Of a stretch of 33,430 nt of DNA, positions 16,104-33,057 are shown in pieces. Numbering within the stretch: the stretch's first letter is position 1; each line of letters begins with the position of its first letter. The notes below the pieces were generated by a model. That model was not told the origin of the DNA and did no database searches. It was given only the letters and a program-made list of their open reading frames with translations. The position numbers and the translations under genes were made by a program. Origin of the DNA: Bacteroidales bacterium (GTDB lineage Bacteria > Bacteroidota > Bacteroidia > Bacteroidales > VadinHA17); assembly GCA_003152835.1 (NCBI GenBank), contig PMBC01000095.1, positions 7,578-41,007 on the forward strand, written 5' to 3'.

Positions 16104-17408
16104 TTAAGTTTTATCTGGAACATCCAGCTTACCATATATCACGGAGAGTCCAGCAGCCATCCTGTCGAGCGACAGCTCTGATCTTACCCTCATTCTCCCG
16201 GTCTCTCCAAGCTTTTTCCTCAAAACATCATCTTTAAGCACTTTCAGCAGCGACGATGCCAGTTCTCCGGTTGTATCAGGGGAATAGATTATTCCTCCGC
16301 CGGTAGTTTTTATTATTTCAGGAAATGCTCCTGTAGCCGGCTGTACAACAGGGATACCTGCACCATTTGCCTCGAGGATATAGAGGCCATACCCGTCATA
16401 TTTTCGCACAGGAACGCTTATTACATCGATATTAGTAAAGAACTCCATCTTCCCATTTCCCTGGAATTCAGGATATATCCTCACACTTTTCTCAAATCCT
16501 TTTTCCCTTATTTTTTTAATCTGAGAGGATATGAATGTTTTATCATCACTTGTAGAGCCTCCGCAGACATGTAAAGTCAGGTCCTTCAGATCTATTCCTG
16601 ATTTTAATTCAATGAATGCATCAACGAGTTTATCGAATCCGTTCATATGGTTTACCCTGCAGAAATAACCAACTGCCGGAGGCTTTACTTCTTTCTTTTG
16701 TCCCTCAGTCGGGTCCGGATCAAAACCGAGAGGCACAACAGCAATGTTATCACCTTTCATCCCGGTTTTCTCTATAAATATCTCCTTGTAATAATTGCTA
16801 GGCGTAACGAAATAATCAATTGCCTCTGACTCACGTGCTATCATCTCCCAGGCTCTTCCACGGTAAGGCTCGGCCATTTCGTCTATCCAGTCATCCTCAT
16901 TTAGAAGGGAACAAACTATTTTGACATTAATTCTCTTTTTAAGTTGTTTTGCAAGGCCTATGATAAGAGCGTTTGACATATGTATAACATCAGGAGAGCC
17001 TTCATTCCCGAGGTATTTTACGAGCCTGTCGACCTCATTGGCACGGAATGCACTTCCGCCCGTTATCATATTCAATGTGAGCTCCTCCATTCCCTCGGTT
17101 CTTGTCGTGCCTGCCTGACGCGCCGCCAGATTCAGCAAAGGACCTGAATCAAATAATTTATCCAAAAAGGCTGGCATGTTTCGAAGCAGCTTCACCTTTT
17201 CCCTGAGGTACAATGAGATTGCCCCAAAGAATACTTTATCATCAAAACCATATTCTGAAGTGTTTTTACCTGGTGGAAGGTAGAGCGGGATTGCTTTTGC
17301 GGTTGTTCCGGGGACTTTACGCATTGCCCTGAGATATAGCATATCACGATAGCAGTTACCGCAGTAAAATGAACCACCGGAACCGGTTATCAGGTAAACA
17401 ATTTTCAT
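16104..17408 (-). CDS. GT4-like glycosyltransferase with N-terminal CGNC motif
   Basis: This 434-residue protein has two Rossmann-like halves of the GT-B fold. The N-terminal half starts with ITGSGGSFYCGNCYRDML (C16, C19); the C-terminal half carries the donor site, seen as VGYFCRVNHMNGFDKLVDAF and YDGYGLYILEANGAGIPVV, followed by ATGAFPEII. The last part matches the E-x7-E loop region of GT4 enzymes, which transfer a sugar from a nucleotide donor. The CGNC pair near the start is typical of a GT4 subgroup in which the glycine-rich loop carries cysteines; its role is unknown. It overlaps the upstream propeller gene by 4 bases (ATGA) and sits 12 bases before the ABC ATPase. A glycan or glycolipid linked to the ABC exporter is possible. 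The acceptor is unknown. Confidence 0.87.
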   Translation of the reverse strand: MKIVYLITGSGGSFYCGNCYRDMLYLRAMRKVPGTTAKAIPLYLPPGKNTSEYGFDDKVFFGAISLYLREKVKLLRNMPAFLDKLFDSGPLLNLAARQAGTTRTEGMEELTLNMITGGSAFRANEVDRLVKYLGNEGSPDVIHMSNALIIGLAKQLKKRINVKIVCSLLNEDDWIDEMAEPYRGRAWEMIARESEAIDYFVTPSNYYKEIFIEKTGMKGDNIAVVPLGFDPDPTEGQKKEVKPPAVGYFCRVNHMNGFDKLVDAFIELKSGIDLKDLTLHVCGGSTSDDKTFISSQIKKIREKGFEKSVRIYPEFQGNGKMEFFTNIDVISVPVRKYDGYGLYILEANGAGIPVVQPATGAFPEIIKTTGGGIIYSPDTTGELASSLLKVLKDDVLRKKLGETGRMRVRSELSLDRMAAGLSVIYGKLDVPDKT

Positions 17409-18535
17409 TTTTTCACAACGTTTTTATTTCCAAAAGCAAGTATTCTCCCATCTTCAGTAAGAAAATAAAACATATCATCGGCAACTGCAGGTGAACTTGT
17501 AACAGGTGAACCGGCGTTAAAGCTCCACAGCTTCTTTCCGTCCTTTAACGAGAGCATATAAATATTACCGTCACTGCTGCCTACCAGCACTTTAGAGGGT
17601 GTAATTACTGCCGAACCTTTTATGCTGCCATTAGTACGGTATTTCCAGAGTAACTTTCCTGAGGAAGAATCATAGCAATAAATGAACTTATCATCCCTGC
17701 CAATAATGACAAAATTCCCGTCAGTTGCAGGAATAGACATGATTGAACCTGACCCGTCAGCAAGTCCGGTTTTCCAGGCTAATTTACCCTTTACCATATC
17801 AACGCAATAAAAATTGCCATCATAATCACCGAAATATGCTTTCTGACCTGAGAGGGCAGGAGAGGCTGCAATATAAACTCCAATATTTATCGTGTCCCTT
17901 TCCTTGCCTGTGACAGGGTCAACCACCCTCAGGAAACCATCGCAGCCACCAAAAACGATCTTGTTCTCTGACACTGCCGGCGTTCCATTTATATAATTCT
18001 CTGTTTCCAGGGTCCACATTTTCCTGCCTGAATCAGGATCAAGACAGTAAAGACAATAATCATAGCTTCCGAAGATTAGTCCTGCACGCTTTCCGGCAAT
18101 CCATATATTAGCTGATCCTGCAATCTGATTTCCTGCCTTAAATGTCCAGGCCGGCTTCCCGCTTGATTTTCCAAGGGCTATAAATAACCCATTGTCGCTG
18201 CCGAAAAATACCTTGTCACCATAAACCAGCGGAGGCGCTGTAACCGCACTTCCGGCATCATAGGTCCAGCTTATTTTTTTATCAATCCCTACAGCAAAGA
18301 TTGTTCCCTTGTCATTTCCAAAAAAGAGAAGCCCCTCGCTGATCACAGGCGAAGATTGCGATTTCGAACCAGTAGGAAGACTCCATAGCAGACCAGGATT
18401 TGAAGGCAATTCATTTTTCAAGCTTCCGGAAAGATCACTTTTACCTCTGAACATAGGCCATTCACTGGCAGGCACCTGTGCGAATGAAAGCGCTGGAACA
18501 AAGAGTAATAATATAACCTGAAAATACTTTTTCAT
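17405..18535 (-). CDS. Secreted PQQ-like beta-propeller protein (BamB-like)
   Basis: The product has 376 residues with a signal peptide (1-19, cleavage near FAQ) and then the WPMFRG motif (27-32). Seven or eight short blades follow at intervals of about 40 residues, each ending with a GK-x-x-W segment: KPAWTFKAG, RKMWTLETE, KLAWKTGLAD, KLLWKYRTNG, KKLWSFNAG. Between them are repeated V-x-FG-x-D/Y-x-G strands. It is the most regular of the four WPxFRG propellers here and resembles BamB, but the setting does not suggest outer-membrane assembly. It lies 3 bases after the HydA-like gene and overlaps the glycosyltransferase by 4, so it links the redox and export parts of the operon. No ligand or catalytic residue can be assigned. 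Confidence 0.9.
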   Translation of the reverse strand: MKKYFQVILLLFVPALSFAQVPASEWPMFRGKSDLSGSLKNELPSNPGLLWSLPTGSKSQSSPVISEGLLFFGNDKGTIFAVGIDKKISWTYDAGSAVTAPPLVYGDKVFFGSDNGLFIALGKSSGKPAWTFKAGNQIAGSANIWIAGKRAGLIFGSYDYCLYCLDPDSGRKMWTLETENYINGTPAVSENKIVFGGCDGFLRVVDPVTGKERDTINIGVYIAASPALSGQKAYFGDYDGNFYCVDMVKGKLAWKTGLADGSGSIMSIPATDGNFVIIGRDDKFIYCYDSSSGKLLWKYRTNGSIKGSAVITPSKVLVGSSDGNIYMLSLKDGKKLWSFNAGSPVTSSPAVADDMFYFLTEDGRILAFGNKNVVKK

Positions 18536-18538
18536 TAT

Positions 18539-19603
18539 CTAATCCTTTAAATGGCCGAGCGCTCCTGTCGGACATATATCAATAACCTTATCCGTTTGAG
18601 TCGTGAGTATATTGCTGAACTCATCTGTCAGCGGTTCAGAAATTATTGAAACAAAGCCCCTGTTAATAAAACAAAGAGCCGGTTCATCATTCCTGTCCTC
18701 GCAAACCCTTACGCAAAGTCCGCATTTTATACACTTGGCATTTTCAAAAATCAGGCCGGTTTTATAGTTTATCTTTTTAGTTATATGAGAATTTACAACT
18801 TTACCAACCGGATCCTTAAGTGAAAACTCCTGTGCAAGTTCTCTTAACCTGCAATCACCGGCAGCCCTGCAATCGCAATGCATACAACTTTCAGCTTCTG
18901 TGCCGGCTGTGCGGAAATCATTAACTTCCCTGAACCGGGGAGCATCATTTTTTGACTCTTTGATCCATTCTTTAAGCTCTGATTCCTCAAGGTGGCCAAT
19001 ACGTGAAGAGAAGCGCTTTCTTATACCTTCAATATTATCCCTTCTTCCTATCTTCAACATGGACAGGTCATTCTCCCCGATATTCTGAAAAACAAAAAGC
19101 TGGATGTTCCTTATTGAAACAGAAAGATCAATTTTCTTCCTGCGGCATGCGTTCTCACAATAACCCGGACAGGTTGCACATCGAATCTCCCTGGAATCAA
19201 GTCCGGAAAGTGAAAGTTCAACAGCTTCCCTTACCTTGCCATCCGCAAGCAACCTGTTCATTTTTGGAATGTTATAACCGGCAGGACATACAACCCTGCA
19301 TGGAGCTTCACACTCAGCCCGGTGTTCAGAAAGAAGCAGCTCAACGGCTTTTTTCCTCAGGTGAATCACTTCATCAGATGCCGCATCAATTTCCATCCCT
19401 TCCTGAACAATTGCAGAACATGACGGTATGAAGTCATTTTTCAGGTTATTCTTCACCATACAAACCATGCAGGATGAATAGTGTTCAATACCATCTTTAT
19501 GGCAAAGTACAGGTATGTGAATACCCGCCTTACTGGCAGCATCGAGGATAGTCGAGCCATCGGTGGCTTCCACAATTATGTTATTGATTCTGATCTTTGG
19601 CAT
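18539..19603 (-). CDS. HydA/NuoG-like iron-sulfur protein lacking a catalytic domain
   Basis: The 354-residue cytoplasmic protein begins with a plant-type [2Fe-2S] domain (1-78; ligands C34, C45, C48, C62), as in NuoG and HydA. Next comes a Fer4_20-type region as in GltD and dihydropyrimidine dehydrogenase (C98, C102, C106; then C142, C145, C149, C153). A second cysteine group (C240, C243, C245, C251) and a ferredoxin site (C291, C294, C297, C301 with C344-P) follow. There is no [FeFe]-hydrogenase H-cluster domain and no molybdopterin domain. It overlaps the NuoE-NuoF fusion gene by 23 bases, so it is almost certainly its electron-transfer partner. It could pass electrons from NADH to another protein, perhaps the membrane ferredoxins of the same operon; that link is inference. 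Confidence 0.88.
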   Translation of the reverse strand: MPKIRINNIIVEATDGSTILDAASKAGIHIPVLCHKDGIEHYSSCMVCMVKNNLKNDFIPSCSAIVQEGMEIDAASDEVIHLRKKAVELLLSEHRAECEAPCRVVCPAGYNIPKMNRLLADGKVREAVELSLSGLDSREIRCATCPGYCENACRRKKIDLSVSIRNIQLFVFQNIGENDLSMLKIGRRDNIEGIRKRFSSRIGHLEESELKEWIKESKNDAPRFREVNDFRTAGTEAESCMHCDCRAAGDCRLRELAQEFSLKDPVGKVVNSHITKKINYKTGLIFENAKCIKCGLCVRVCEDRNDEPALCFINRGFVSIISEPLTDEFSNILTTQTDKVIDICPTGALGHLKD

Positions 19604-22004
19604 TGATATTCACTATTTCAACTGCATTATCACGACATACAACCCGGCAATTGTCACATTTTGTGCAAAGCTGCTGATCAATTTCATGTTTTTCATATGG
19701 CTTAAAACTGATTGCCTGAACCGGACACTCCTGGAAACACCTGGTGCATCCAGTGCAATTATCTGTTATCTCGTACCTTATCAGTTCGCGGCATTTCTTT
19801 GCCGGGCAATATCCGTTTGCATGAGCCTCATATTCCTGCCTGAAGTACAGCAGACCTGTAATAACAGGGTTCGGAGCGGATTTGCCAAGCCCGCAAAGAC
19901 TTCCGTTCTTCACATCTATGCATAATTTCTCCAGCTGATCTATTTCGGATTTATCTGCTTTCCCTTCGCTCAGCCTGGTGAGGATATCAAGCATATGTTT
20001 TGTTCCAACCCTGCAGAAAGTGCATTTGCCGCATGACTGTTTATGAGTGAATGTCAGAAAGTATTTTGCAACATCAACCATGCAATCTGTATCATCCAGG
20101 ACAACCAGTCCGCCGGAACCCATCATAGCGCCCATCTTTTGCAATTCCTCGTAATCGACAGGAGTATCCGCCATTGCCGCAGGGATACATCCTCCCGAGG
20201 GTCCTCCGATCTGAACTGCCTTGAAAGTTCTGCCCTCAGCAACACCGAGACCAATCTTCTCCACGATGTCACTGATTGTTATTCCCATAGGTACTTCAAT
20301 CAGTCCTCCCTTTGATATCTTCCCTGCAAGTGCAAATACTTTCGTCCCTTTGCTTTTATCGGTGCCGATTGCGCTGAAGGCTTCTGCACCATTATTTATA
20401 ATCCATGGGACAAGAGAAAGCGTTTCTACATTGTTGACCAGTGTAGGTTTGCCCATAAATCCTTTTACAGCAGGGTAGGGAGGTCGCAGATGAGGGGTTC
20501 CCCGTTTGCCTTCAAGGGAGGCTATCAGCGCAGTCTCTTCACCGCATACAAAGGCTCCAGCTCCCTCAAAAATCCTGATATCGAACGAATAAAGTGTATT
20601 TAGTACACTTATTCCGAGAATACCTTTTTCATAGCATTGCTTTAATGCATTTCTAACTCTTGAAACAGCAAGAGGATATTCGGCCCTGATATAAAAAATG
20701 CCTTGATGTGCACCGGTTGCAAAACCTGCTATCAGCATTCCTTCAATTACCCTGAAAGGGAAAGATTCTAAAAGCATCCTGTCCATAAAGGCTCCGGGGT
20801 CGCCCTCATCTCCGTTGCAGACTATGAATTTTTCAGATGACCTGGTTCCGGAAAATATTTCCCATTTTCTACCTGTTAAAAATCCTGCTCCTCCTCGTCC
20901 CCGCAGTCCGCTCTTCATAACTGTCAATACAATATTATCAGGTTCAGACATGCTCAGGCAGTATCTTATTGCTTTAAACCCGCCGAAGAGCATATATTCA
21001 TCAATTGATTCGGGAGAGAGAATCCCTCCACCATCAGTTGCCAGCCGGACCTGCCGGCTCAGGAAGTTGCTGAGATATTTTTCCCTTAGTTCGCCTGGAA
21101 TGTTGACAGGGCTATTAACCATATCATCCGATATAAAAGTATCGGCAAATTCCGTTATTCTGAATTTTATTTTCTTATCAATCCGGCCTGGCTTTACATG
21201 CTTAATAAGTATTTCTTCAACTTGCTCTTCCCTGACATTGGTATACCGGTAGTGAACATTTTCTTTTGTGACTATTTCAAGCAAGGGAGTCTGGTTGCAA
21301 ACCCCGACACATCCTACAGGCTTAATTTTTATATTGAGGGCATATCCTTCCTTTATTTCAAGCAGTCTCGAAAGTATCTCTTTGCTGCCGCCGGCAACGC
21401 AGCATGATCCAAGTCCGATTCGCACTTCAGCATCTGATTCGTCTTCATGTGCCTCTTTCTGAAGATGGATTTCTTTTTGCCTCGTCCTGAGAAAATCATT
21501 AATTATCTCATCAGCCTGGGTCGGTTTCACGTGACCATAGGTTTTTCCGTCAATCTGAACCACCGGAGCCAGAGTGCAGCAACCCAGACATGCCACTTCC
21601 TCAAGTGAGAAGAGGTTATCGGGAGAAGTAAGCCTGTCGTCATTTATTTTAAGCGCTCTTTTAAATGATTCTGAAATGAGCTGTGAGCCTTTAACATGGC
21701 AGGCTGTACCGGCACATACCTTAATAATATGCCTTCCTGCAGGAAGATGCCTGAACTGAGAGTAAAATGTCGACACACCCGAGATCTGTCCCGGTGTGAT
21801 ATCAGTCAGCTCGCAAATGAGCCTGAGGGCTTCAGAGGGAATGTGATTCAGCTTTTTCTGAACCTCCTGAAGGATTTGAATTACCTTGTCTTTTTCCCTG
21901 CCTGTGGAAGCAACTACTTCTTCGACAGCCGATTTAATAAGGTTGACATCAGCTGGTTTGCAGCCACAAACGTCATTTGCAATATGTGTGTTTTCTTCAA
22001 TCAC
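19581..22004 (-). CDS. HydC-HydB (NuoE-NuoF) fusion: NADH-binding flavin iron-sulfur subunit
   Basis: This 807-residue protein joins several redox modules. (1) NuoE/HydC thioredoxin-like [2Fe-2S] domain, about 18-175, ligands C97, C102, C139, C143. (2) A second thioredoxin-like [2Fe-2S] domain, about 193-270 (C201 or C202, C232, C236), as at the N-terminus of HydB. (3) NuoF core with the FMN/NADH loop GRGGAGF (369-375), GDEGDPGAFMDR (398-409) and an SLBB segment. (4) The NuoF [4Fe-4S] site C658, C661, C664, C704. (5) A C-terminal 2[4Fe-4S] ferredoxin (C750/753/756/760 and C780/783/786/790). The enzyme would oxidise NADH or reduce NAD+ in the cytoplasm. The start is GTG at 22004, overlapping the upstream stop as GTGA. 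The electron-bifurcating HydBC class has these domains, but on two proteins; bifurcation here is not shown. Confidence 0.93.
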   Translation of the reverse strand: MIEENTHIANDVCGCKPADVNLIKSAVEEVVASTGREKDKVIQILQEVQKKLNHIPSEALRLICELTDITPGQISGVSTFYSQFRHLPAGRHIIKVCAGTACHVKGSQLISESFKRALKINDDRLTSPDNLFSLEEVACLGCCTLAPVVQIDGKTYGHVKPTQADEIINDFLRTRQKEIHLQKEAHEDESDAEVRIGLGSCCVAGGSKEILSRLLEIKEGYALNIKIKPVGCVGVCNQTPLLEIVTKENVHYRYTNVREEQVEEILIKHVKPGRIDKKIKFRITEFADTFISDDMVNSPVNIPGELREKYLSNFLSRQVRLATDGGGILSPESIDEYMLFGGFKAIRYCLSMSEPDNIVLTVMKSGLRGRGGAGFLTGRKWEIFSGTRSSEKFIVCNGDEGDPGAFMDRMLLESFPFRVIEGMLIAGFATGAHQGIFYIRAEYPLAVSRVRNALKQCYEKGILGISVLNTLYSFDIRIFEGAGAFVCGEETALIASLEGKRGTPHLRPPYPAVKGFMGKPTLVNNVETLSLVPWIINNGAEAFSAIGTDKSKGTKVFALAGKISKGGLIEVPMGITISDIVEKIGLGVAEGRTFKAVQIGGPSGGCIPAAMADTPVDYEELQKMGAMMGSGGLVVLDDTDCMVDVAKYFLTFTHKQSCGKCTFCRVGTKHMLDILTRLSEGKADKSEIDQLEKLCIDVKNGSLCGLGKSAPNPVITGLLYFRQEYEAHANGYCPAKKCRELIRYEITDNCTGCTRCFQECPVQAISFKPYEKHEIDQQLCTKCDNCRVVCRDNAVEIVNINAKDQNQ

Positions 22005-23692
22005 TTCTCAGAAACACAATAAAGGTTTTCCTTTCCCCGTATAAAAATAAGGCCCTCGGAAAATGATGGTGTGCAATCCGATGATTCGCCAATTGAAGAT
22101 TCAGAGACAAGCTCAAATTTCTCTGATTTCTTTACAATGTGCATCTTTCCGGTTCTGTCAAGAAACCATACCTTATTATCTGCAATAATCGGGGAAGCAT
22201 AAAACGGATCCATGAAATAATGTGTCCATAAGGTATCGCCTTTCTGGGCATTATAACAGGCTACATCACCATATCCTGTAGCGACGAAAAGGAACTCATC
22301 GGTCGCGACCGGACTGGATACATCAGGGGTATAAGTATTGTCTTCCCACTTTGATGATGCAGGCGTGCCTGGAAGTATTGCCACCAGCTTTGCATAATCA
22401 GTCACTGAATATGCCATTGTACTGTTGACAGCTGCCGAAGGAGCGACATCACCACTCAGGCAGTCGAACGACCACAGCAGCTTACCGGTTGCTGCATCAA
22501 ATCCGGCAGTTGCAGGATTTCCATTAATAACCACCTGCGTTACATTGCCGAAGTGAGCCAATACTGGTGAGGACCATACCGGCCTTCCGGAACGCAGAGT
22601 TTCCCATTTTAACACTCCGGTTTCAATATCGAATCCCATAAGTGAAAGTTTCTTATCAGAATCATATTGAACAATAAGAGTATTTTCAAATATTATAAGT
22701 GACGAAGAATAGCCGTATGTAGTGCCTGGAACTCCCAGGTTGGTGGACCAGAGCTTCTTCCCATCATGAGTGAGGCTTATCAGGTTACCGTTCGCAAACA
22801 CGGCGCAAACCGCTTTGCTGCTGGCTGCAACAGTTGATACTGCAAGTCCGGCATCTACAGACATCTGCGGCAGAGCAGATGGTTCACCCGGGATCCCGGA
22901 AGCAGACGCAGTCCATTGTATTTTGCCGGAATTCTTATTATAGCAGTATACCTTGCAAAGAAGACCTTCAGCACCTGTAACGAAAAGCTTATCATCCCAT
23001 ATCACTGGTGAGCTCTTTCCTTTGCCCGGGATCGCAACGCTCCATTTTATATTTTTACCGGTACCGACATTCCATTCAGTCGGATAACCGCTTCCTCCGG
23101 CTATACCTCTGGAATCTTCACCCCTGAAGAAAGGGAAATTTGTTTTGCCGGGCCTGAAGGTATCGGTTTGACCGAATTTAACGGCAACCTTTTTACCCGC
23201 TGACGACGTCGCTTGCAGGTCAGGCAAATTGCTGCGGAGCATAAAGGAGGCGATAACGGCTCCGACTATGATTATTGCCGCCGATGCTAAGAGATATTTT
23301 CTGTATTTGTTCCTGTCGGCTGAAAGATCAGGTTTTGAACCTGGAATTACAGGCATTATCTTCTCATTCCCGGCAATGATTCGCTGACATAAAACGAATA
23401 CTATTGCTCCGGCAAGAAGAAGATAGGAGCCGGTCTCGACCTGGCGTCTTGAAGTAAAATATGCTTTTCTTGCCATCAGGTCCATTGCTCTCAACTGAGC
23501 TGCTTTTTCAGCATTGTCCTGATTATTGTCAAATTGTTCCCTGATCGTAAGAAGAGCTGGATTATCAAGCGGATTCACGCTCTTCAGCTGAGCCAGGCTG
23601 AAAATCATTATAATGGCGATTATAATTGTAAAACCGCCTGCCACCTGGCTGATCCCTGTTAATATGCTGATATCTTTTTCGCTGAACTTCAT
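22001..23692 (-). CDS. Membrane-anchored PQQ-like beta-propeller with three N-terminal helices
   Basis: The 563-residue protein has three predicted membrane helices (about 15-35, 87-105, 132-152). They are separated by a polar segment rich in Asn/Gln/Arg (about 37-85), and a periplasmic propeller runs from about 180 onward. The propeller opens with FPFFRG (186-191), a variant of WPxFRG, then GTGKNIKWSVAIPGKGKSSPVIW. Blades carry NSGKIQWTAS, DGKKLWSTNLG, TGVLKWETLR and TGKLLWSFD. The multi-helix anchor is unusual for this fold and suggests direct contact with a membrane partner. The neighbours are the NapH-like ferredoxin (4 bases upstream) and the NADH subunit (GTGA overlap), so it may join the membrane and cytoplasmic redox parts. 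No redox cofactor ligands are evident. Confidence 0.87.
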   Translation of the reverse strand: MKFSEKDISILTGISQVAGGFTIIIAIIMIFSLAQLKSVNPLDNPALLTIREQFDNNQDNAEKAAQLRAMDLMARKAYFTSRRQVETGSYLLLAGAIVFVLCQRIIAGNEKIMPVIPGSKPDLSADRNKYRKYLLASAAIIIVGAVIASFMLRSNLPDLQATSSAGKKVAVKFGQTDTFRPGKTNFPFFRGEDSRGIAGGSGYPTEWNVGTGKNIKWSVAIPGKGKSSPVIWDDKLFVTGAEGLLCKVYCYNKNSGKIQWTASASGIPGEPSALPQMSVDAGLAVSTVAASSKAVCAVFANGNLISLTHDGKKLWSTNLGVPGTTYGYSSSLIIFENTLIVQYDSDKKLSLMGFDIETGVLKWETLRSGRPVWSSPVLAHFGNVTQVVINGNPATAGFDAATGKLLWSFDCLSGDVAPSAAVNSTMAYSVTDYAKLVAILPGTPASSKWEDNTYTPDVSSPVATDEFLFVATGYGDVACYNAQKGDTLWTHYFMDPFYASPIIADNKVWFLDRTGKMHIVKKSEKFELVSESSIGESSDCTPSFSEGLIFIRGKENLYCVSEK

Positions 23693-23696
23693 TTCT

Positions 23697-24965
23697 TTAA
23701 TTTTTAACTTCTACCGGGCAATATTTAAAGCATCGTCCGCAACTGTAACATTTTCCCTGGTGCGGTTTATAACCTATCCTGGAGCGTTTCGTTGTAAGAG
23801 ATACAAGGCTTATGCCAAGAGATAATCCAAGGAATGCGCCTGCCCATGGTGAAGCTTTCCTGAATCGTTCAATTATTTTCATTTCCCCGGCAAAAAGCTC
23901 TTTTTCTGTTTTACCTGCTTCTTTAAAGGCGACTGCAGCCTTAGATACGGCTTCGACGCCGGTCACTTTTTCGTTTCTTATCTCTTTAGCAAGTCTTACA
24001 TCCCTGTTTATTGAAGCCAGCGAAGGGGCAAGATTATAAAAAACAAGGGCACCGGCAGCAGTGAAGAAAGGAATCAGCAGCAGGTAAATGATGAATCGCT
24101 TGCGGGCTTTTCCCGGGTTTTCGCTGCTTATAATGCTTATTGAAGGAAGAATCGCATCGTAGGGGCATGCTTCCTCGCACAATCTGCATTCAGTACATTC
24201 GGCAGGAGTAATAGACAGGTGTTTACCGGCAAACCTGGAAAATATGCTGAGAAGAACACCATATGGACAAAGATACCTGCAATAGGGCCTGTTAATAAAA
24301 ATACCGGCCAGGAGGAGCAGAGCACCGAAAATAATCATTGTGTAGGTGGCATTCAGCCTGAAAATACCTACAAACGGATCATACCTGCATATAATGAACT
24401 GGTTCCCGGTAGCGGCAAACAATACTGCGGCTGTCAGATATATAAAAGGTACAGCAGCCATTATTGATTCCACCGGTTTTGGTAGTTTGACCGGAATAAA
24501 CCCGGTCAGTTCCTGGATAGCACCTAAAGGGCAGACTCCGGCGCAGAATACTCTGCCGAATGCAAGTGCGAAGAGTAGTGGAATTATAAAAAAGAGAAGG
24601 GCTGTAAGCGGAATGGAATACCCGTTATTAAAGAGAGCCAGTGCGACATTCTGAACCGAACCTACTGCGCAGATACATCCCTCACGGTAAAACCCGAAGT
24701 AAGCCAGGGAAAAAACAGATAACCAGACAAGTCCCTCTCTTGATCTTTTATATATTGCAAGCCATACAGCTGCGGAGAGGGCAAGGATCAGAACAGCAAC
24801 ATCAACATATTGCCATCCCTGAGCTCTCTGAAGAGCAAGCTGGTCAGTCGGGTAAACATATCCTGATTCAAACTCCGGTCGTGGGAACCTGTCCTGGGCG
24901 TAGAGTACGGTATGCCAGCAGATAAGCAGAAGCAATATTATATATGGGATATACTTTCTTTTCAT
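23697..24965 (-). CDS. NapH/NosR-like membrane 4Fe-4S protein
   Basis: This 422-residue polytopic protein starts with a signal-like helix (1-23, LYAQ). Membrane helices lie near 53-72, 80-93, 118-137, 168-186, 207-224, 291-310 and 375-391. Two C-x3-C-P motifs next to helices (C141/C145-P and C229/C233-P) are the hallmark of NapH and the NosR C-terminal half, where they serve in quinol oxidation. Two [4Fe-4S] sites follow: C257, C260, C263, C267-P, and at the extreme C-terminus C406, C409, C412, C416-P. An additional C97-x-C99 pair sits near helix 2. The periplasmic FMN domain of true NosR is missing. It pairs with the NapG-like gene upstream (29-base gap). It would move electrons between the quinone pool, or cytoplasmic carriers, and the periplasm. 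Confidence 0.9.
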   Translation of the reverse strand: MKRKYIPYIILLLLICWHTVLYAQDRFPRPEFESGYVYPTDQLALQRAQGWQYVDVAVLILALSAAVWLAIYKRSREGLVWLSVFSLAYFGFYREGCICAVGSVQNVALALFNNGYSIPLTALLFFIIPLLFALAFGRVFCAGVCPLGAIQELTGFIPVKLPKPVESIMAAVPFIYLTAAVLFAATGNQFIICRYDPFVGIFRLNATYTMIIFGALLLLAGIFINRPYCRYLCPYGVLLSIFSRFAGKHLSITPAECTECRLCEEACPYDAILPSISIISSENPGKARKRFIIYLLLIPFFTAAGALVFYNLAPSLASINRDVRLAKEIRNEKVTGVEAVSKAAVAFKEAGKTEKELFAGEMKIIERFRKASPWAGAFLGLSLGISLVSLTTKRSRIGYKPHQGKCYSCGRCFKYCPVEVKN

Positions 24966-24994: not shown

Positions 24995-25582
24995 TTATAA
25001 ATTCGGAGCTTGCTTTATAATGTTTTTATCTTTTGGAATATACTGGTGGTCCGATGGAACTCTTGAGATGGCCTGCGAGGGGCAGTTCCTTGCTATGGAA
25101 CAATCATTGCAGTTATCGCACAGGTCGTGGTGAATCTGGAGGTACATCGAGCCGTTGCCGAAATCATTGCATCCCTTGACGCATTTTCCGCAGGCATCAC
25201 AAAGGTCCTTGTTTATTGTGTACTCAAAGTATGGCTCTTCAATATACCGACGCCTGATGGCGCCGGTGGGACACTGTTCCCGTTCAGCACCTGTGCCTGT
25301 TGTTTTTATTCCCTGCCTCAGGTAAGCTCCGCACAGGTCACAGTATCCACATACTAAATATGCATGTGTACATTTAACTGCCGATGGTGTTTTGACACAT
25401 TTTGTCTTGCACTGCCCGCATTGAGTGCATTTAAATGGATCGATCTGCCAGACATATCCTTTTGCCGAAGTCTTCCTTGCCAGAAAAACTGGAATGGAGA
25501 GCAGCGGCGCAACCACGATTATTTTTCCTGCATTTCGGACGAAATCACGACGGGACTGATATTTATTCCTGTTTTCCTTCAT
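24995..25582 (-). CDS. Tat-type periplasmic polyferredoxin (NapG-like)
   Basis: The 195-residue protein begins with a twin-arginine-like signal SRRDFVRNAG (10-19) and a hydrophobic stretch (21-35), so it is probably exported folded and may stay anchored. It has four cysteine groups: C52/C55/C58/C62; C71/C78/C81/C84 with C104-P; C128/C131/C134/C138; and C155/C158/C161/C167-P. These could hold four [4Fe-4S] clusters, as in NapG, MauM and NrfC-like proteins. NapG proteins take electrons from the membrane partner NapH, whose homologue is encoded just downstream. No nitrate reductase is present, so the pair serves another acceptor. The start ATG overlaps the stop of the 58-residue protein gene (ATGA). 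The family call is strong and the partner is unknown. Confidence 0.9.
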   Translation of the reverse strand: MKENRNKYQSRRDFVRNAGKIIVVAPLLSIPVFLARKTSAKGYVWQIDPFKCTQCGQCKTKCVKTPSAVKCTHAYLVCGYCDLCGAYLRQGIKTTGTGAEREQCPTGAIRRRYIEEPYFEYTINKDLCDACGKCVKGCNDFGNGSMYLQIHHDLCDNCNDCSIARNCPSQAISRVPSDHQYIPKDKNIIKQAPNL

Positions 25583-25755
25583 TTCTGAGAAAGATAAAAG
25601 GTACAGTCAGATTCTCCCCGGCATACACCGTTTCCTGCGCATGAAGAACAATTCTTCCGTGTTGAGGCTTTTTTACCCAATGCAAACAGGATAAATGCCA
25701 GCAATGCAAAAAGTCCTGCACGGATCACTGTCGTAATAAATTTATTCCTGTTCAT
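25579..25755 (-). CDS. Small membrane protein with four cysteines, function unknown
   Basis: This short gene has 58 codons plus a stop. It overlaps its upstream neighbour by ATGA (25752-25755) and its downstream neighbour by ATGA (25579-25582), which is strong evidence that it is real. The protein has a basic N-terminus (MNRNKF), one membrane helix (about 8-27, IRAGLFALLAFILFALG) and a short tail with C36-x2-C39-x5-C45-x5-C51. The positive-inside rule is ambiguous, because basic residues lie on both sides of the helix. Four cysteines could hold an iron-sulfur or zinc site or form disulfides. Placed between the NHL propeller and the NapG-like ferredoxin, it may be an assembly factor or a small subunit of the membrane redox complex. 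I do not recognise a family. Confidence 0.82.
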   Translation of the reverse strand: MNRNKFITTVIRAGLFALLAFILFALGKKASTRKNCSSCAGNGVCRGESDCTFYLSQK

Positions 25756-26672
25756 TTTCTCTTGAAAACATAAAGTTTAGAATCTGCCTCGTTGGCGCCA
25801 TAAATAGTTTTGCCGTCAGTTGATGCGACATCAAGCGGAACCGATGGGACAAATTTGTTATTTACTGATACAAATTCAATGAAGCTGCCATCCATTCCAA
25901 GTATTTTAATCCTGTTCAGTCCCTTTTCAGCCGTTACGAATCCACCGGGTATTAATGCAAAATGAGCAGGATTGCAGCATGCATTGAACTCATCAGGACC
26001 GGTTCCCGGCTTTCCGAACTGAGAGATGAAAAAACCGTGGGTATTCCATTTTTCTATCCTGTGGTTTCCGGTATTGGCGATATAAATCGTATCGCCTTCA
26101 GTCAAAACAACATCAAAATAGGAGCTGGGTATAATGAATGTTCTGTCACGTTGCCCGATAATGCCAAGTACTTCTCCGTCTCTCCTGAGTATAAAAACCA
26201 TTTTGTTTGCAGCATCAGCAACAGCAACAATACGGCTATTTGCTGAGAGTGATGTAAATATGCTGTTTACCTCGAAAGGGCCCCACTCACCGATCTGTTT
26301 GCCGGCAGTGCTTACAATGAAGACTTTGCCGATAGATGATGCAAAGACTGAATCGCCGGACATGGCGACTGCTGTTATCCTTTCAGGCATCTTAAGAGTC
26401 CACTGCCTTGCAAACTCGCTGTTGTAGCACGATATAAAAGATTCGCCTCCAAGGAAAACAAGTCCGCTCTTCGATATAGCCACCGAGGTTAATGGACCTT
26501 CCTGTGGCAGGAATTCCTTTGCTATTATCCAGTTTTCAGTGTAAACCGGTGCTTTCGCGCTTTCCGGTTTTGTTTCGGTCTCAGGACGGGAAACAACAGT
26601 GTCGTAAACAATATAACCAATGAAGGTTAATATAATAAGAAGGGAAAAGACCGCAATGTATTTTTTGTTCAT
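25752..26672 (-). CDS. Membrane-anchored NHL-type six-bladed beta-propeller
   Basis: The 306-residue protein has an N-terminal membrane anchor (about 5-24) and a short linker. A propeller of NHL-like repeats follows, best seen in IYIANTGNHRIEKWNTHGFF (197-216) and FVTAEKGLNRIKILGMDGSF (245-264). A striking C232-C233-N-P motif, followed by H237, lies between the last NHL blades. NHL propellers bind protein or nucleic acid partners; this one faces the periplasm. It lies 6 bases after the first propeller gene and overlaps the four-cysteine protein by 4. The vicinal cysteine pair in a redox operon may bind metal or form a disulfide, but that is inference. I see no enzymatic residues. Confidence 0.85.
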   Translation of the reverse strand: MNKKYIAVFSLLIILTFIGYIVYDTVVSRPETETKPESAKAPVYTENWIIAKEFLPQEGPLTSVAISKSGLVFLGGESFISCYNSEFARQWTLKMPERITAVAMSGDSVFASSIGKVFIVSTAGKQIGEWGPFEVNSIFTSLSANSRIVAVADAANKMVFILRRDGEVLGIIGQRDRTFIIPSSYFDVVLTEGDTIYIANTGNHRIEKWNTHGFFISQFGKPGTGPDEFNACCNPAHFALIPGGFVTAEKGLNRIKILGMDGSFIEFVSVNNKFVPSVPLDVASTDGKTIYGANEADSKLYVFKRK

Positions 26673-26678
26673 GGCTTA

Positions 26679-28136
26679 TTATTTTTTTCCGATATCGAGG
26701 CAAACCAGGTTTCGTGAATCTCTCATAATCAGATACTTTCCGGCAATGGCCATTGGACCCCAGGCTTCGATTCCCTCTATTATCCTGCATTTTGATATAA
26801 GTGAAGCATTTGATCCCTCCAATTTAAATAAAAAGAGATTTGCATCGTCGTCAAGCAGGTAGAGCTTATTTCCGCTAACAATATAAGGTCCCAGGCCACG
26901 TCCAAACCTGGCATCTTTTCCGCTTGTCCATACAGGCTTCAGCAGATCTGATTCTGAATAGCAGACAAGTTGTTTTTTAAGTGCACCTGCATTCTCCGGC
27001 ATAACGGTCCTGATAAATCCTCCTGTTATTACCGGAGTCTGCTGATCGCTCGACAGACCATCCGGGGCCTTATGTTTTTCAATCATTTGTGCGGAAAAGG
27101 ATGTCCCGTCAAAGTTGATTTTTATCTTCGCGCCTCCGGCACCATAACTTCCGAAAACAGCAATCTCATTATTACTCAGCTGAAGAGGTGAAGCAGCAGT
27201 CGTAACCGGGCTCCATTCCGAAGTTTTCCATAGAAGATTCCCAATATCGGCGCCATCTGCTGAGACTCCGCAAACACCACCTATGGCATTGTATACATAC
27301 ATTCTTTTTCCATGTATGACCATCGGGATTATCGAACCATGCGACATTCTCAGGGAATCAGGATTTGGTGTCATCCAGAGGATTTTTCCACAGTAACAAT
27401 CGACACCTATCATAAGGGCTTTCCCGCCTGGAGCCAGAACTGCTATATTATTATCGATCAAAGGACACTGCCCGGTATAGAAATCAGGTGTGATCCTCCC
27501 TTTTTCTTTTCCCCTGATGCCAAACTTCTTTTCCATATCCAGCGTCCAGATAAGCCTGCCAGTAAGCGGATCAAGACACATTACATGTGAGCGGGGACCA
27601 ATTGAAACAAGGTATTTATCAGTAACAGCCGGAACTGTGCGTGAATAGCCGTGATTTCTTTTAAGATCGACGTAATACCAGCGTCGCCAGAGTTCAGTTC
27701 CTGATTTAAGCGAGAAACAGCGAAGTACATCTGTCTTACGCCTTTCATTATAATCAAGAAGGTAGACCCTTCCATTCTTCACCGCAGGGCCTGAATAACC
27801 CTCTCCTAATGAAACTTTCCAGATGATTGGTGGTCCCGTTGGATCCCACGATTCAGCAAGAGGAGTAGAGTCCCTGTTTATATTATCAAAATATGCTCCG
27901 CGAAATCTCGGCCATTCTCCTGGCGCCACTTCATCAAACTTTCCAAGTGTATCGAAGAACTGGCCGATTATTACACTATCAGGGCGTTCAACCTGCTTTG
28001 GCCTGTTATCGGCTCCCGGCAATCTTTCTGAAATTACAGCAGGCAGGTGATCTCCGGCTATCCACCAGAAAAGAAAGCCAGCAAATATCAAGCTTACAGC
28101 CCCGACTGCCAGGATTCTATTTTTATTAAAAGCCAT
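26679..28136 (-). CDS. Membrane-anchored PQQ-like beta-propeller, first gene of the redox operon
   Basis: The 485-residue protein has an N-terminal membrane helix (about 8-27), a linker, and the WPRFRG motif (75-80) at the start of a PQQ-like propeller. Blades include SGTELWRRWYY, TGRLIWTLDM, CGKILWMTPN and LLWKTSEW. It is the first gene after the AT-rich divergent region, so it probably heads the twelve-gene transcript; a TATTTTTG box lies about 46 bases upstream. It resembles the other WPxFRG propellers here but is more divergent in its blades. It is likely a periplasmic scaffold or binding protein for the redox complex. No PQQ-binding residues can be assigned with confidence. The next gene starts 6 bases downstream. 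Confidence 0.88.
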   Translation of the reverse strand: MAFNKNRILAVGAVSLIFAGFLFWWIAGDHLPAVISERLPGADNRPKQVERPDSVIIGQFFDTLGKFDEVAPGEWPRFRGAYFDNINRDSTPLAESWDPTGPPIIWKVSLGEGYSGPAVKNGRVYLLDYNERRKTDVLRCFSLKSGTELWRRWYYVDLKRNHGYSRTVPAVTDKYLVSIGPRSHVMCLDPLTGRLIWTLDMEKKFGIRGKEKGRITPDFYTGQCPLIDNNIAVLAPGGKALMIGVDCYCGKILWMTPNPDSLRMSHGSIIPMVIHGKRMYVYNAIGGVCGVSADGADIGNLLWKTSEWSPVTTAASPLQLSNNEIAVFGSYGAGGAKIKINFDGTSFSAQMIEKHKAPDGLSSDQQTPVITGGFIRTVMPENAGALKKQLVCYSESDLLKPVWTSGKDARFGRGLGPYIVSGNKLYLLDDDANLFLFKLEGSNASLISKCRIIEGIEAWGPMAIAGKYLIMRDSRNLVCLDIGKK

Positions 28137-30122: not shown

Positions 30123-30167
30123 CTGATTTTAAGGCAAGAGAATTAATGCCATTGCCATAAAAATCAG
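30123..30167. terminator. Candidate bidirectional terminator between asnB and the DUF4097 operon
   Basis: An inverted repeat is seen: CTGATTTT (30123-30130) pairs with AAAATCAG (30160-30167), and inside it GGCAA (30133-30137) pairs with TTGCC (30152-30156), leaving a 14-base loop. Both sides end with T-rich or A-rich flanks. The element lies between convergent genes and slightly overlaps the stop region of the minus-strand DUF4097 gene. Confidence 0.45.
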
Positions 30168-30799
30168 TCTGATTTCCTGAAGAATATGTCGCCGCTTATT
30201 GTTTCCAGTTTTATCTGCGATCCTCCGTTATTCATCTTATCTTTTATTTTTACGGGGACCCCGCTTCCGTTATTTTCCGGCGTAAGCCTTAGATCTGAAT
30301 AGATTGTTCCGGATATCGTTGAAAAATCAAGATTTGCTGATCTTTTTTCCGGAACCGCCATATCAATGAAGCCGCTTATAGATTTGAGATTCATTCTCCC
30401 GGTTTCTCCTTTGATAGTCAGGTCGGCATTAATTGTCTCGATGGTAACGTTGGTATTCTCCGGGATAAAAACCCGCCACCAGATATCTGATTTGTTACAG
30501 CAATCGTTTCTTCCCTTGAAATAATTCTCCTTAAATCTGGCATTGACTTTCACACCGTCTCCATTCTCCTCAAATGAAGTCACATAAGCCTCATTATCAG
30601 TGTTGTCATTAATATTGACGGATGCTTCAGCATAGACCTCATTTTTGTTCCAGGTCTGAACAAATATTGAGTCGGCGATCTGTATATTCAATTCCACATC
30701 TGTTTTTCCTGAAAAGCTAAGATGCTTTTCTATTTTCTGCTGAGCCTGGATTGTTCCAAAGCAAAGCATACCAATAATTAATATTGTACAAGTTTTCAT
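30164..30799 (-). CDS. Secreted DUF4097-like beta-repeat protein
   Basis: The 211-residue protein has a signal peptide (1-19, cleavage near IQAQ). The mature part is made of short beta-strand repeats such as VTIETINADLTIKGETG, MNLKSISGFIDMAVPE, LDFSTISGTIYSDLR and IKLETISGDIFFRKS, with the I-S-G-x-I pattern of the DUF4097 right-handed beta-solenoid. The family's function is unknown; many members sit in the envelope of Bacteroidota downstream of sigma/anti-sigma pairs. It carries two adjacent cysteines (NDCCNKSD) not seen in the partner gene. It follows the larger DUF4097 gene by 33 bases and is probably the last gene of the sigma operon. It is likely a duplicate that diverged. Confidence 0.83.
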   Translation of the reverse strand: MKTCTILIIGMLCFGTIQAQQKIEKHLSFSGKTDVELNIQIADSIFVQTWNKNEVYAEASVNINDNTDNEAYVTSFEENGDGVKVNARFKENYFKGRNDCCNKSDIWWRVFIPENTNVTIETINADLTIKGETGRMNLKSISGFIDMAVPEKRSANLDFSTISGTIYSDLRLTPENNGSGVPVKIKDKMNNGGSQIKLETISGDIFFRKSD

Positions 30800-30832
30800 T
30801 TATAATAAATTGATTAGGAAGGAGGGAGGGAA

Positions 30833-31612
30833 TCAATTTCCCTTCCTCAGGTAAATATTACCATTTACGGTTTCAATGCTGAATTTAAATCCTCCTCCAT
30901 TAAGAGATGCATTCAGATGGTTCCCACCAACCCTTTTCATGTCCTTCTGCGAATCGGAAATGTCGAAATCTGAGTAAAAGCCTCCATTTATTGTTCCCAT
31001 TTCGATGTTTGTGGCAGTTTTTGCAGGAAGAGTGATATCGATATCGCCGCTAACAGAGCTGATGGAAGAAGGCTTTTCCGTTACAAATGTATCAAATGTT
31101 ATATTGATATCACCGGCAATTGTTGAGAGAATAAGAGGTCCCGAAACGTTTTTAAGGTCAATGCCATGGCAGTTTTCAATGTCAATCTCATTCTTCATAC
31201 TTGAAACTGAAATATTACTTGACCTTTCGCATCCGCTCTTGATCTCCAGTGCCATGTTATCAGGAACCCTGATCTTGTACTCACCTTTCCTTGTAAAAGG
31301 AACAAGACAGGTTACAGTAATCTGGCCAACATTCTTTTGCACTGAAAGTCCCATTCCCGAATTATCGGTTCCGCCAGGATAAACAGGCTTAAGCCCTTTG
31401 GCTTTCTCCGGAGGCGTAAAAGCCTCAGAAGCAGATGTAAATATTACCTCATTGCCACTGTACCCTTCAATTGGCAGATCACCGCTGAAATCGATCAGGA
31501 TAAGCTTTCTGTCTTTAGTGTCAGGCACCTGAACTTTATACTCCTGGGCAGGCAAGTAGCCGCTTCCCAGGAATGTTAAAAGTATAATCAGAATAATTTT
31601 CGTTGTTTTCAT
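30833..31612 (-). CDS. Secreted DUF4097-family beta-repeat protein
   Basis: The 259-residue protein has a signal peptide (1-22, cleavage near LPAQ) and a beta-solenoid of DUF4097 type: LKNVSGPLILSTIAGDINI, SSISSVSGDIDITLPAKT, IEMGTINGGFYSDFDI and FSIETVNGNIYLRKG. It shares the closing repeat with the smaller neighbour (FSIETVNGNIYLRKG against IKLETISGDIFFRKS), so the two are paralogues. It would lie in the periplasm or on the surface. It is 84 bases downstream of the anti-sigma gene. Control by the ECF sigma factor at the head of the cluster is likely by position. No binding or catalytic site is visible. Confidence 0.87.
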   Translation of the reverse strand: MKTTKIILIILLTFLGSGYLPAQEYKVQVPDTKDRKLILIDFSGDLPIEGYSGNEVIFTSASEAFTPPEKAKGLKPVYPGGTDNSGMGLSVQKNVGQITVTCLVPFTRKGEYKIRVPDNMALEIKSGCERSSNISVSSMKNEIDIENCHGIDLKNVSGPLILSTIAGDINITFDTFVTEKPSSISSVSGDIDITLPAKTATNIEMGTINGGFYSDFDISDSQKDMKRVGGNHLNASLNGGGFKFSIETVNGNIYLRKGN

Positions 31613-31696
31613 AGTAATTATTTTAAATTTTTAAACTGTACCAGGCAAACCCGGAATCTGCACTGGTATATATAAATTGAATCCAATATTCACTTA

Positions 31697-32506
31697 TTAC
31701 AGAAGAAGCTTTCTTACTCCATTCTGGGCAACAGCCTTAACCTCTTTAATGGTACCCTCATCTGAAATGATTTGCTGAATTGGTCTTATTGCGCTTTTCT
31801 CCTTTCTGTCAACAAGTATATTAATAAGAGTTACCTGGATAATCGGATCATTTTGTACCGACAGCGATTTTACAAGTGAATCGCAGACCGATTTCTGGTC
31901 GGCAAACTTTGAAAGGGCATATGCTGCCGCAAGGCGGACATTGACGTTTTTATCATTATTCAGTGTTGCAACCAAAGCTTCAATTACATTGTCATCCGGA
32001 GCCTTCAGTTCATCTGCATAATTGACACCCTGTAACCGGTAACTAGATGACTCGTCTTTGAGCATTGTAAACATGGCTGCCCGCTTAAGTGATGAAACTT
32101 CAGTTTGCAGCTGGCTAAGCTCTATTGCCTGTGATTTGTTTCGTAAGCCTGAATTAATCAGAGCACCAATGAATGTACCGCAAACCAGCAATGCAAAACC
32201 TGCAGCGACCCTGAACAGGTTTCTGTTGTACCAGTGAACCTGAGGCTGAAGAACAGAGCCTGAAGTAATATTCTTATGCTTTCTGATTTCTCCATGCAGC
32301 ATGTGGTAGAAATTAATTCGCAGGGACTCATCAGGATTCTCCATCTCATCATCTGATACTGAATTTAATACCTTCTGGATCTCCATCATTTCTTCCAGGC
32401 AGTGCTCACATGTCTCGATATGCTTTTCAATCGCCATTTTCTGATCAGCATCGAGCTTATTATCAAGGTAATCAATGATTACTGCTTCAACTTCGTCACA
32501 TTTCAT
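31697..32506 (-). CDS. Zinc-finger anti-sigma factor with C-terminal HEAT-like repeats
   Basis: I choose the ATG at 32506 (269 residues), 11 bases after the sigma gene, because MKCDEVEAVIIDYLD is the usual start of this family; an ATG at 32542 would add 12 unlike residues and overlap the sigma gene. The zf-HC2 anti-sigma domain (1-50) has H29-x3-C33-x2-C36. A membrane helix lies at about 97-118, followed by a coiled segment (124-150). The periplasmic part (172-269) has HEAT-like repeats (VIEALVATLNNDKNVNVRLAAAYALSKF; VTLINILVDRKEKSAIRPIQQII, shown by their helix pattern). The protein would hold the sigma factor inactive at the membrane until a signal reaches the HEAT domain. The signal is unknown. 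Confidence 0.88.
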   Translation of the reverse strand: MKCDEVEAVIIDYLDNKLDADQKMAIEKHIETCEHCLEEMMEIQKVLNSVSDDEMENPDESLRINFYHMLHGEIRKHKNITSGSVLQPQVHWYNRNLFRVAAGFALLVCGTFIGALINSGLRNKSQAIELSQLQTEVSSLKRAAMFTMLKDESSSYRLQGVNYADELKAPDDNVIEALVATLNNDKNVNVRLAAAYALSKFADQKSVCDSLVKSLSVQNDPIIQVTLINILVDRKEKSAIRPIQQIISDEGTIKEVKAVAQNGVRKLLL

Positions 32507-32517
32507 ATCCCGTAATA

Positions 32518-33057
32518 TTAAACTTGTTGAAAATAAATGCATCTTAACTGCTTTATAGCCCTGTGGACGGCAACTTTGATTGCAGGGACCGACTGATCAA
32601 GAATTGTGCTTATCTCTTCATACTTCATTTTCTGAAACCTGCTCAGAACAATTATTTCTCTCTGCTCGTCACTTAACGAAAGCAAAGCCCTTTCAAGCTT
32701 TTCATAGTCTTCTTCATGGAAAGTTTCTGACTCTTCAGAAACGTCTTTAGAGTATGATTCTTCCCTTATAATCAGATTATCAGACTTTTTCCGGTTGTTG
32801 CGAAAATCATTATGCAGGTTTCTGGCCATCTGATAGATCCACGACTTTACGCAATAACCTTCCTTGTATGTGTTCCTGTATTTTATCATTCGGTAAAATA
32901 GATTCTGGGTCAGATCCTGACTAATATCTCTTTCAAGACCCATTTTAAGGAAGTAATTGTAAAGCTTCTTATTATATCTTTCAAACAGTAAAGACAATTC
33001 AGAAAGATTACCCTCCTTTACCTTTTGCATTATTATTTCATCAGAAACAAATTCCAC
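32518..33057 (-). CDS. ECF-type RNA polymerase sigma factor (RpoE-like)
   Basis: The 179-residue protein has sigma region 2 (about 20-88; core seen in LTQNLFYRMIKYRNTY and SWIYQMARNLHNDFRNNRK) and region 4 (about 122-172; LSDEQREIIVLSRFQKMKYEEIS and an HTH VPAIKVAVHRAIKQL). There is no region 3 or 1.1, as in all ECF factors. The start codon is GTG at 33057; an internal ATG (33030) would give 170 residues and is possible. The gene for its zinc-finger anti-sigma factor follows at once, then two DUF4097 genes, a common Bacteroidota envelope-response arrangement. It likely controls its own operon, but I cannot define its promoter motif from a single site. Confidence 0.94.
   Translation of the reverse strand: MEFVSDEIIMQKVKEGNLSELSLLFERYNKKLYNYFLKMGLERDISQDLTQNLFYRMIKYRNTYKEGYCVKSWIYQMARNLHNDFRNNRKKSDNLIIREESYSKDVSEESETFHEEDYEKLERALLSLSDEQREIIVLSRFQKMKYEEISTILDQSVPAIKVAVHRAIKQLRCIYFQQV

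Follow-up and report, generated by a model that had tools for sequence, protein, structure and literature searches.

A 58-residue four-cysteine membrane protein encoded between NHL-propeller and NapG-like genes in Bacteroidales, a candidate accessory subunit of NapGH-type complexes

The stretch of DNA analysed here (the window; 33,430 nucleotides of a Bacteroidales contig) carries a long run of genes on the minus strand. The run begins with a BamB/PQQ_2-like propeller of 485 aa (26679..28136), followed by an NHL-repeat propeller of 306 aa with a vicinal CC motif (25752..26672), a small membrane protein of 58 aa (25579..25755), a NapG-like polyferredoxin of 195 aa with a twin-arginine N-terminus and 16 invariant cysteines (24995..25582), a NapH-like membrane ferredoxin of 422 aa (23697..24965; TIGR02163 at E 1.1e-17, under the cut-off of that model), a membrane-anchored BamB/PQQ_2-like propeller of 563 aa (22001..23692), and a NuoE-NuoF-like diaphorase fusion of 807 aa with a C-terminal 2x[4Fe-4S] region (19581..22004). 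After the fusion come a NuoG-N/HoxU-like [2Fe-2S]/[4Fe-4S] protein of 354 aa (18539..19603), a BamB-like propeller of 376 aa (17405..18535), a glycosyltransferase and an ABC transporter. The 16 cysteines of the NapG-like protein are kept in 28/28 aligned rows and would be expected to give room for four [4Fe-4S] clusters; no NapG model matches this protein, and the name 'NapG-like' is based on its layout. No nitrate reductase gene was recognised within the window.

Some variation of the surrounding genes may be seen. In three clusters of the window's genus (L104, L105, and L110), the interval from the membrane propeller to the next one holds no NuoEF-like gene, and therefore the NADH module looks optional. 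The NHL propeller and its relatives display a vicinal CC in 95/95 near-full-length neighbours (CCN in 86), which we take to resemble the vicinal disulfide of PQQ dehydrogenases. Elsewhere in the window (30164-33057) there are a sigma-factor-like gene, then a zinc-finger/HEAT-like membrane protein and two DUF4097-like secreted proteins, all named by reading only.

The small ORF was pointed out in an earlier note, in which no strand was given. It exists, on the minus strand, with an ATG start, a single hydrophobic segment, and the translation MNRNKFITTVIRAGLFALLAFILFALGKKASTRKNCSSCAGNGVCRGESDCTFYLSQK. Its cysteines are residues 36, 39, 45, and 51, and residues 36-51 (25603..25650, minus strand) make up the tail C-x2-C-x5-C-x5-C; the one membrane helix and the four-cysteine tail described in the note are thus borne out by the translation. 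The ATGA overlaps with both neighbours are also exact: the stop of the NHL gene overlaps the start of the small gene at 25752..25755, and the stop of the small gene overlaps the NapG start at 25579..25582 (minus strand; plus-strand letters 'tcat' in both cases). There is no open frame on the plus strand of 25579-25755.

The length of the ORF should not be taken as proof of a gene, because 58 ORFs of at least 50 aa occur in 13.4 kb; the proof is provided by conservation. Homologs were detected by tblastn in 47 of 98 relatives (E ≤ 0.1), all except two within the window's genus, and the small gene was found by profile search in 48 of the 62 genomes of that genus (E ≤ 0.01). The conservation of the four cysteines, proposed in the note as a check, is complete: they are invariant, together with R3 and G27, in 30/30 aligned in-genus rows (alignment A1, from which L002, a weak match elsewhere in its own genome with E 0.29, was left out). 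The in-genus consensus is MxRxxFxKKLIRxxLxxLLAxIAxxLGxRxVxGxDCSxCPGKGICxGExDCxKY. The pattern named there as refuting, i.e., a lack of conservation or substitutions typical of non-coding DNA, is not seen; pN is lower than pS in 39/39 close pairs, which were picked for similarity, and pN/pS ranges from 0.07 to 0.46 among the closest 30 of them. A chance ORF is ruled out by the conserved homologs and the purifying selection, and 25579-25755 is a genuine protein-coding gene of a conserved family.

The occurrence of the small gene follows that of napG. Among the 58 genus-labelled genomes, the gene is present in 44 of the 47 that are NapG-positive, the three others being G009, where a contig end interrupts the sequence, and G017 and G036, whose clusters are divergent. 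The 11 NapG-negative genomes have no trustworthy small gene; a weak match in G035 (E 0.017) has internal stops and is unconfirmed by the profile. A sample of 393 genomes from across the order contained 67 with NapG; in a sample of 296 from across the phylum, the window's own genome was the only one. The order search placed 58 of 59 profile matches in NapG-positive genomes, some of these matches being NapG's own N-terminus.

Cluster DNA was read in 116 NapG-positive genomes, 51 of them genus-labelled and 65 others. The genus clusters comprise 48 with a separate small gene, two without, and one in which the position is off the contig; the non-genus clusters comprise 37 with a separate gene, six with a fused one, 21 without, and one that is not judgeable. 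For the 114 judgeable clusters together, the module is separate in 85, fused in six, and absent in 23, i.e., it is present in 91. The slot between the NHL propeller and the NapG-like protein is occupied in many Bacteroidales families by a protein of 55-81 residues with one helix and four cysteines. When GTDB genomes were scanned with NapG, at least 528 loci were confirmed; of the best 80, 78 are judgeable, and 68 of these carry the small module. The named isolates among the matches listed are Draconibacterium orientale, D. sediminis, Maribellus sediminis, Mariniphaga anaerophila, Ancylomarina euxinus, and Perlabentimonas gracilis, the last with a degenerate tail whose fourth cysteine is missing from the usual place; the other matches listed are mostly metagenome bins.

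As 23 clusters lack the small protein, the complex is able to function in its absence, and about a fifth of the clusters dispense with the module. Relocation of the gene in these clusters was considered and rejected: 18 of the 19 matches, which were obtained in 18 of the 23 genomes, are NapG's own N-terminus, and the remaining one is a weak match elsewhere in G600 (E 0.0018). On the NapG tree the absences need about nine changes, a count based on few columns and many unresolved forks, which suggests repeated losses or gains. Four clusters that lack the small gene (L097, L138, L139, and L154) encode an NHL protein with a C-terminal cysteine tail of its own, C-x2-C-x3/4-CPLRKG, as if a tail like that of the small protein had moved to the neighbour.

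Which of the two flanking genes encodes the partner may be judged from fusions and junctions. In-frame fusion of the small module to the NapG N-terminus is seen in L158, L159, L162, L168, and L169, and in L143 (L143:3827-5737) a single frame of 637 aa joins the small module, NapG, and NapH. This triple fusion is a candidate dual Sec-Tat membrane protein. In a tree of 109 NapG cores, from which the N-terminus was excluded, the six fused rows and L148 stand on one branch (SH-aLRT 98), and the fused state requires two changes by parsimony count; L148 has a fused-type NapG anchor in which the loop cysteines are lost. The junctions from the small gene to napG are overlapping or no longer than 30 nt in 72 of 81 cases, as against 42 of 78 for those from the NHL gene to the small gene, and no fusion of NHL with the small module was seen in the clusters read. 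With its looser spacing and no fusion, the NHL propeller, offered in the earlier note as one possible partner, is the weaker candidate and was rejected as the main one, whereas the other suggestion, a small subunit of the adjacent NapG-like ferredoxin, gains support. Considering the fusions and the strict co-occurrence, it is NapG, with high confidence, that is the partner. The 4-base ATGA overlap itself is no family trait, as it occurs in 12 of 81 small-to-NapG and 10 of 78 NHL-to-small junctions (with start codons chosen by script).

The export of the small protein is most readily considered from its N-terminus. Residues 3-30 (25666..25749, minus strand) are predicted by AlphaFold2 as a confident helix (block pLDDT 80-96) that includes the sole hydrophobic segment; the best 17-residue window, residues 10-26, has a mean hydropathy of 2.52. 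The four-cysteine tail is modelled with pLDDT 57-59 and no ordered site, and the model of the natural fusion L158 (pLDDT 56.8) is too poor for placing the loop near a cluster. An alignment that had put stand-alone small proteins onto NapG cysteines (A4) was discarded, and folding used A6.

Twin arginines are distributed very differently inside and outside the window's genus. RR precedes x-[FLAV] in 33 of the 43 non-genus modules (6/6 of the fused ones), and RK in five, whereas none of the 48 in-genus small proteins has a twin arginine. The NapG of the genus keeps [RK]R in 48/48 by one pattern, and an R in 42/50 by a first-match pattern that may catch an earlier arginine. The genome encodes TatC (E 5.6e-67). 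The generic TAT-signal domain TIGR01409 is matched just over its cut-off by a single member, L145 (17.2 versus 16.7 bits). Tat-dependent segments are less hydrophobic (PMC5449189), and the small-protein helix, in the way expected of a Sec substrate, is more hydrophobic in the genus than outside it (2.46 versus 1.81). This was rejected as proof that the genus has left Tat, because the NapG signals, mostly with RR kept, shift in the same way (2.12 versus 1.63).

The net charge is more positive on the N-side than on the C-side in 33 of 48 genus proteins and 28 of 37 others, which favours an N-in/C-out topology; the window protein itself (+2 on the N-side, +4 on the C-side) and the fused proteins (N-side more positive in 1 of 6) speak against it. 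The fused proteins have the RR anchor of the module in place of NapG's own, and since a folded four-cluster ferredoxin has to be exported, their tail should be periplasmic and their N-terminus a Tat signal. On this need to export NapG folded, the tail of the small protein is very likely periplasmic. In the genus, the loss of the second Tat arginine makes cytoplasmic cofactor loading less likely for the window-type protein, and together with the changed spacing it makes zinc or disulfides possible there.

The cysteine spacing falls into two types. C-x2-C-x5-C-x5-C is found in 45 of 48 in-genus proteins (the exceptions are G011 with a last spacing of 4, G039 with a last spacing of 7, and G040 with the outside type), and C-x5-C-x2-C-x5-C in 40 of 43 outside the genus (two have a first spacing of 4, and G541 has a late extra cysteine). 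The check proposed in the earlier note, for short ORFs with the cysteine spacing between NHL-propeller and NapG-like genes of other Bacteroidota, gave a four-cysteine protein in the same slot across Bacteroidales families, with a spacing that is mostly of the other type outside the genus. The longer tail of the G541 protein (L152:2435-2677) has extra cysteines and histidines (KCGGCRYATECPGKVHSHHAECTASCG...); among the 37 separate non-genus proteins it was left out of alignment A2, and both it and L137, which has a truncated start, were left out of A3. When 90 rows are aligned jointly, the cysteines of three columns (positions 0, 9, and 15) are invariant in 90/90, and the second cysteine alone shifts, being at +6 in one type and at +3 in the other; the rest is variable (29% mean column identity). 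An alternative register, with the core C-x2-C-x5-C fixed and the outer cysteine moving, costs a six-residue gap. The spacing pattern requires one change on the NapG tree.

The C-x2-C-x5-C triplet also occurs in NuoG N5, WhiB, AddB/Cas4, and SPASM sites. A NuoG [4Fe-4S] model, PF10588, is weakly matched by 3 of 41 members (best E 0.041), and no characterised Fe-S or metal family was matched over its curated cut-off in the sequence and profile searches. According to PMC11138216, the motif Cys-X6-Cys-X2-Cys-X5-Cys of endonuclease III/MutY holds a [4Fe-4S] cluster, and zinc and Fe-S cysteine motifs are indistinguishable by sequence. The organism's own endonuclease III has C-x6-C-x2-C-x5-C (CKAKKPLCDSCGITGLC). 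This exact spacing is not that of the small family, either in or outside the genus, and PF10576 is absent from the families returned for the small proteins. Judged from the cysteine spacing, the loop of the small protein probably carries a metal site; that the metal is [4Fe-4S] in particular is possible, with somewhat less than an even chance.

As to the origin of the gene, the genus and outside profiles align with each other over the signal and the helix, ending at the first cysteine (hhalign prob 97.3), and both also align with the NapG N-terminus over 39-52 columns (hhalign prob 93.5 and 97.2). The outside profile (A3) scores NapG N-termini and the window ORF (E 1.4e-5) about equally. Profile similarity is therefore no proof of orthology between the two spacing types, for which the shared slot serves instead. 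It is plausible that the small gene arose when napG was duplicated in part, at its 5' end; alternatively, Tat-type anchors may have converged.

From the above, the reading we favour, with a likelihood slightly better than even, is that the small protein serves a NapGH-type electron-transfer complex as an accessory subunit, with a Tat-like anchor and a four-cysteine periplasmic loop. The N-terminal anchor, one helix oriented N-in/C-out, would hold the 16-residue loop at the periplasmic face, near the first cluster of NapG. The loop may bind a single metal centre, most likely [4Fe-4S] as in the endonuclease III loop, which might constitute an extra redox relay or a stabilising site between NapG and its neighbours and would act in series with the NapGH ferredoxins. 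In the window's genus, with the second cysteine at +3 instead of +6 and without the second Tat arginine, the anchor may be inserted by Sec or by hitch-hiking with NapG, and the cofactor may differ.

The loss of the twin arginine in 48/48 in-genus members, together with the change of spacing, also fits a thiol-disulfide device, in which the genus tail would be inserted unfolded by Sec and a CxxC would relay electrons from NapG to a disulfide, e.g., the NHL vicinal CC. A CxxC is present in both spacing types, and all 95 near-full-length NHL neighbours offer the vicinal CC; but four cysteines are kept rather than two, 58 residues are too few for a thioredoxin fold, the CC persists in 19/19 NHL proteins of clusters without the small gene, and Tat is retained in the fused members, so that this device appears unlikely.

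The four cysteines may instead form a structural zinc knuckle with no redox role, whose sole effect is to stiffen the anchor against NapG. The in-genus loop C-x2-C-P-G-K-G-I-C includes C-x-x-C-x-G-x-G, which is the form of the DnaJ zinc repeats, and the zinc-binding anti-TRAP family is weakly matched by 2 of 30 members (best E 0.061); moreover, zinc and Fe-S motifs overlap (PMC11138216). Against this, both the partner and the majority of the neighbours belong to the Fe-S or redox proteins, and most non-genus orthologs have a motif for Tat, a pathway used in E. coli mainly by redox-cofactor proteins (PMC3712460). A zinc knuckle is accordingly rather improbable.

The likeness of both small-family profiles to the NapG N-terminus, and the detection of NapG N-termini by the A3 profile, would be expected if the protein were a mere second anchor or export helper for NapG, a partial copy of its N-terminus with incidental cysteines. 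However, three cysteine columns are invariant in all 90 rows while the rest varies, NapG has an anchor of its own, and the loop is lost in just one fusion descendant (L148), which make this quite improbable. A metal chaperone or cofactor-insertion protein, the other role named in the earlier note, is highly improbable: PF12669 (FeoB_associated) is the best Pfam match of the window protein, is touched by 4 of 30 in-genus and 5 of 41 other members, and shares its layout of one helix and a cysteine tail, but the match (E 0.024, 15.3 bits) is under the 27-bit cut-off, no feoB was recognised among the neighbouring genes, and permanent fusion to a polyferredoxin and absence from 23 of 114 clusters both fit this role less well.

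Returning to the accessory subunit of a NapGH-type complex, the finding would add an unannotated subunit to a widespread, unstudied electron-transfer cluster (a NapGH-like core, propellers, and a NuoEF-like module), and exemplifies what short-ORF cut-offs conceal. The cluster occurs in cultured genera (Draconibacterium, Mariniphaga, and Maribellus), and therefore the composition and function of the complex are testable. A more far-reaching and doubtful proposal is that the small proteins constitute a new family, in which a minimal endonuclease III-like [4Fe-4S] loop stands by itself on a Tat anchor, serving as an additional periplasmic electron relay of Bacteroidales NapGH-type complexes and modified by a single ligand shift of three residues and Tat loss. 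If so, related proteins would have different ligand geometries in a site of just 16 residues, and different routes of export. Should an Fe-S cluster be bound by the loop, few natural cluster sites would be smaller, and naturally shifted ligands and natural fusions would be available for spectroscopy.

The comparison with known systems may be summarized as follows. No Pfam or NCBIfam family model fits the small protein over its cut-off (the generic TIGR01409 aside), PDB sequence searches with both small-family profiles gave chance-level matches only, and the NapG-like protein had no match in the PDB. Nothing on the small protein or the gene cluster was found in the literature covered, mostly outside subscription journals. 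The protein is like the FeoB-associated Cys-rich membrane proteins (PF12669) in being tiny, with one helix and a cysteine tail, and unlike them in its place away from feoB and its score under the cut-off. TIGR02811, the formate dehydrogenase region TAT target, is a Tat-signal protein encoded beside a redox enzyme and is of like length, about 65 aa; membership was rejected at 13-17 bits (best 17.0) against a cut-off of 48.45, the match covering only the signal/helix part, residues 1-34. To the endonuclease III/MutY loop (PF10576) it is similar in having four cysteines within 16-17 residues and, in most non-genus members, the ending C-x2-C-x5-C. It differs in the first spacing, 5 not 6 outside the genus, in the 2-5-5 pattern of the genus, and in being membrane tethered without a DNA-binding fold.

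The closest likeness in layout is to the NapGH quinol dehydrogenase (TIGR02163, NapH/MauN), since a 16-Cys Tat-type polyferredoxin stands beside a polytopic NapH-like ferredoxin. To our knowledge, NapGH has no such small four-cysteine subunit; moreover, propellers and a NuoEF-like module surround the present locus, and the NapH match is under the curated cut-off. The natural NapG-NapH fusion in L143 resembles the NapG-NapH fusion polyferredoxins of PMC5449189. The system is thus best filed as a NapGH-type complex with a previously undescribed four-cysteine small subunit.
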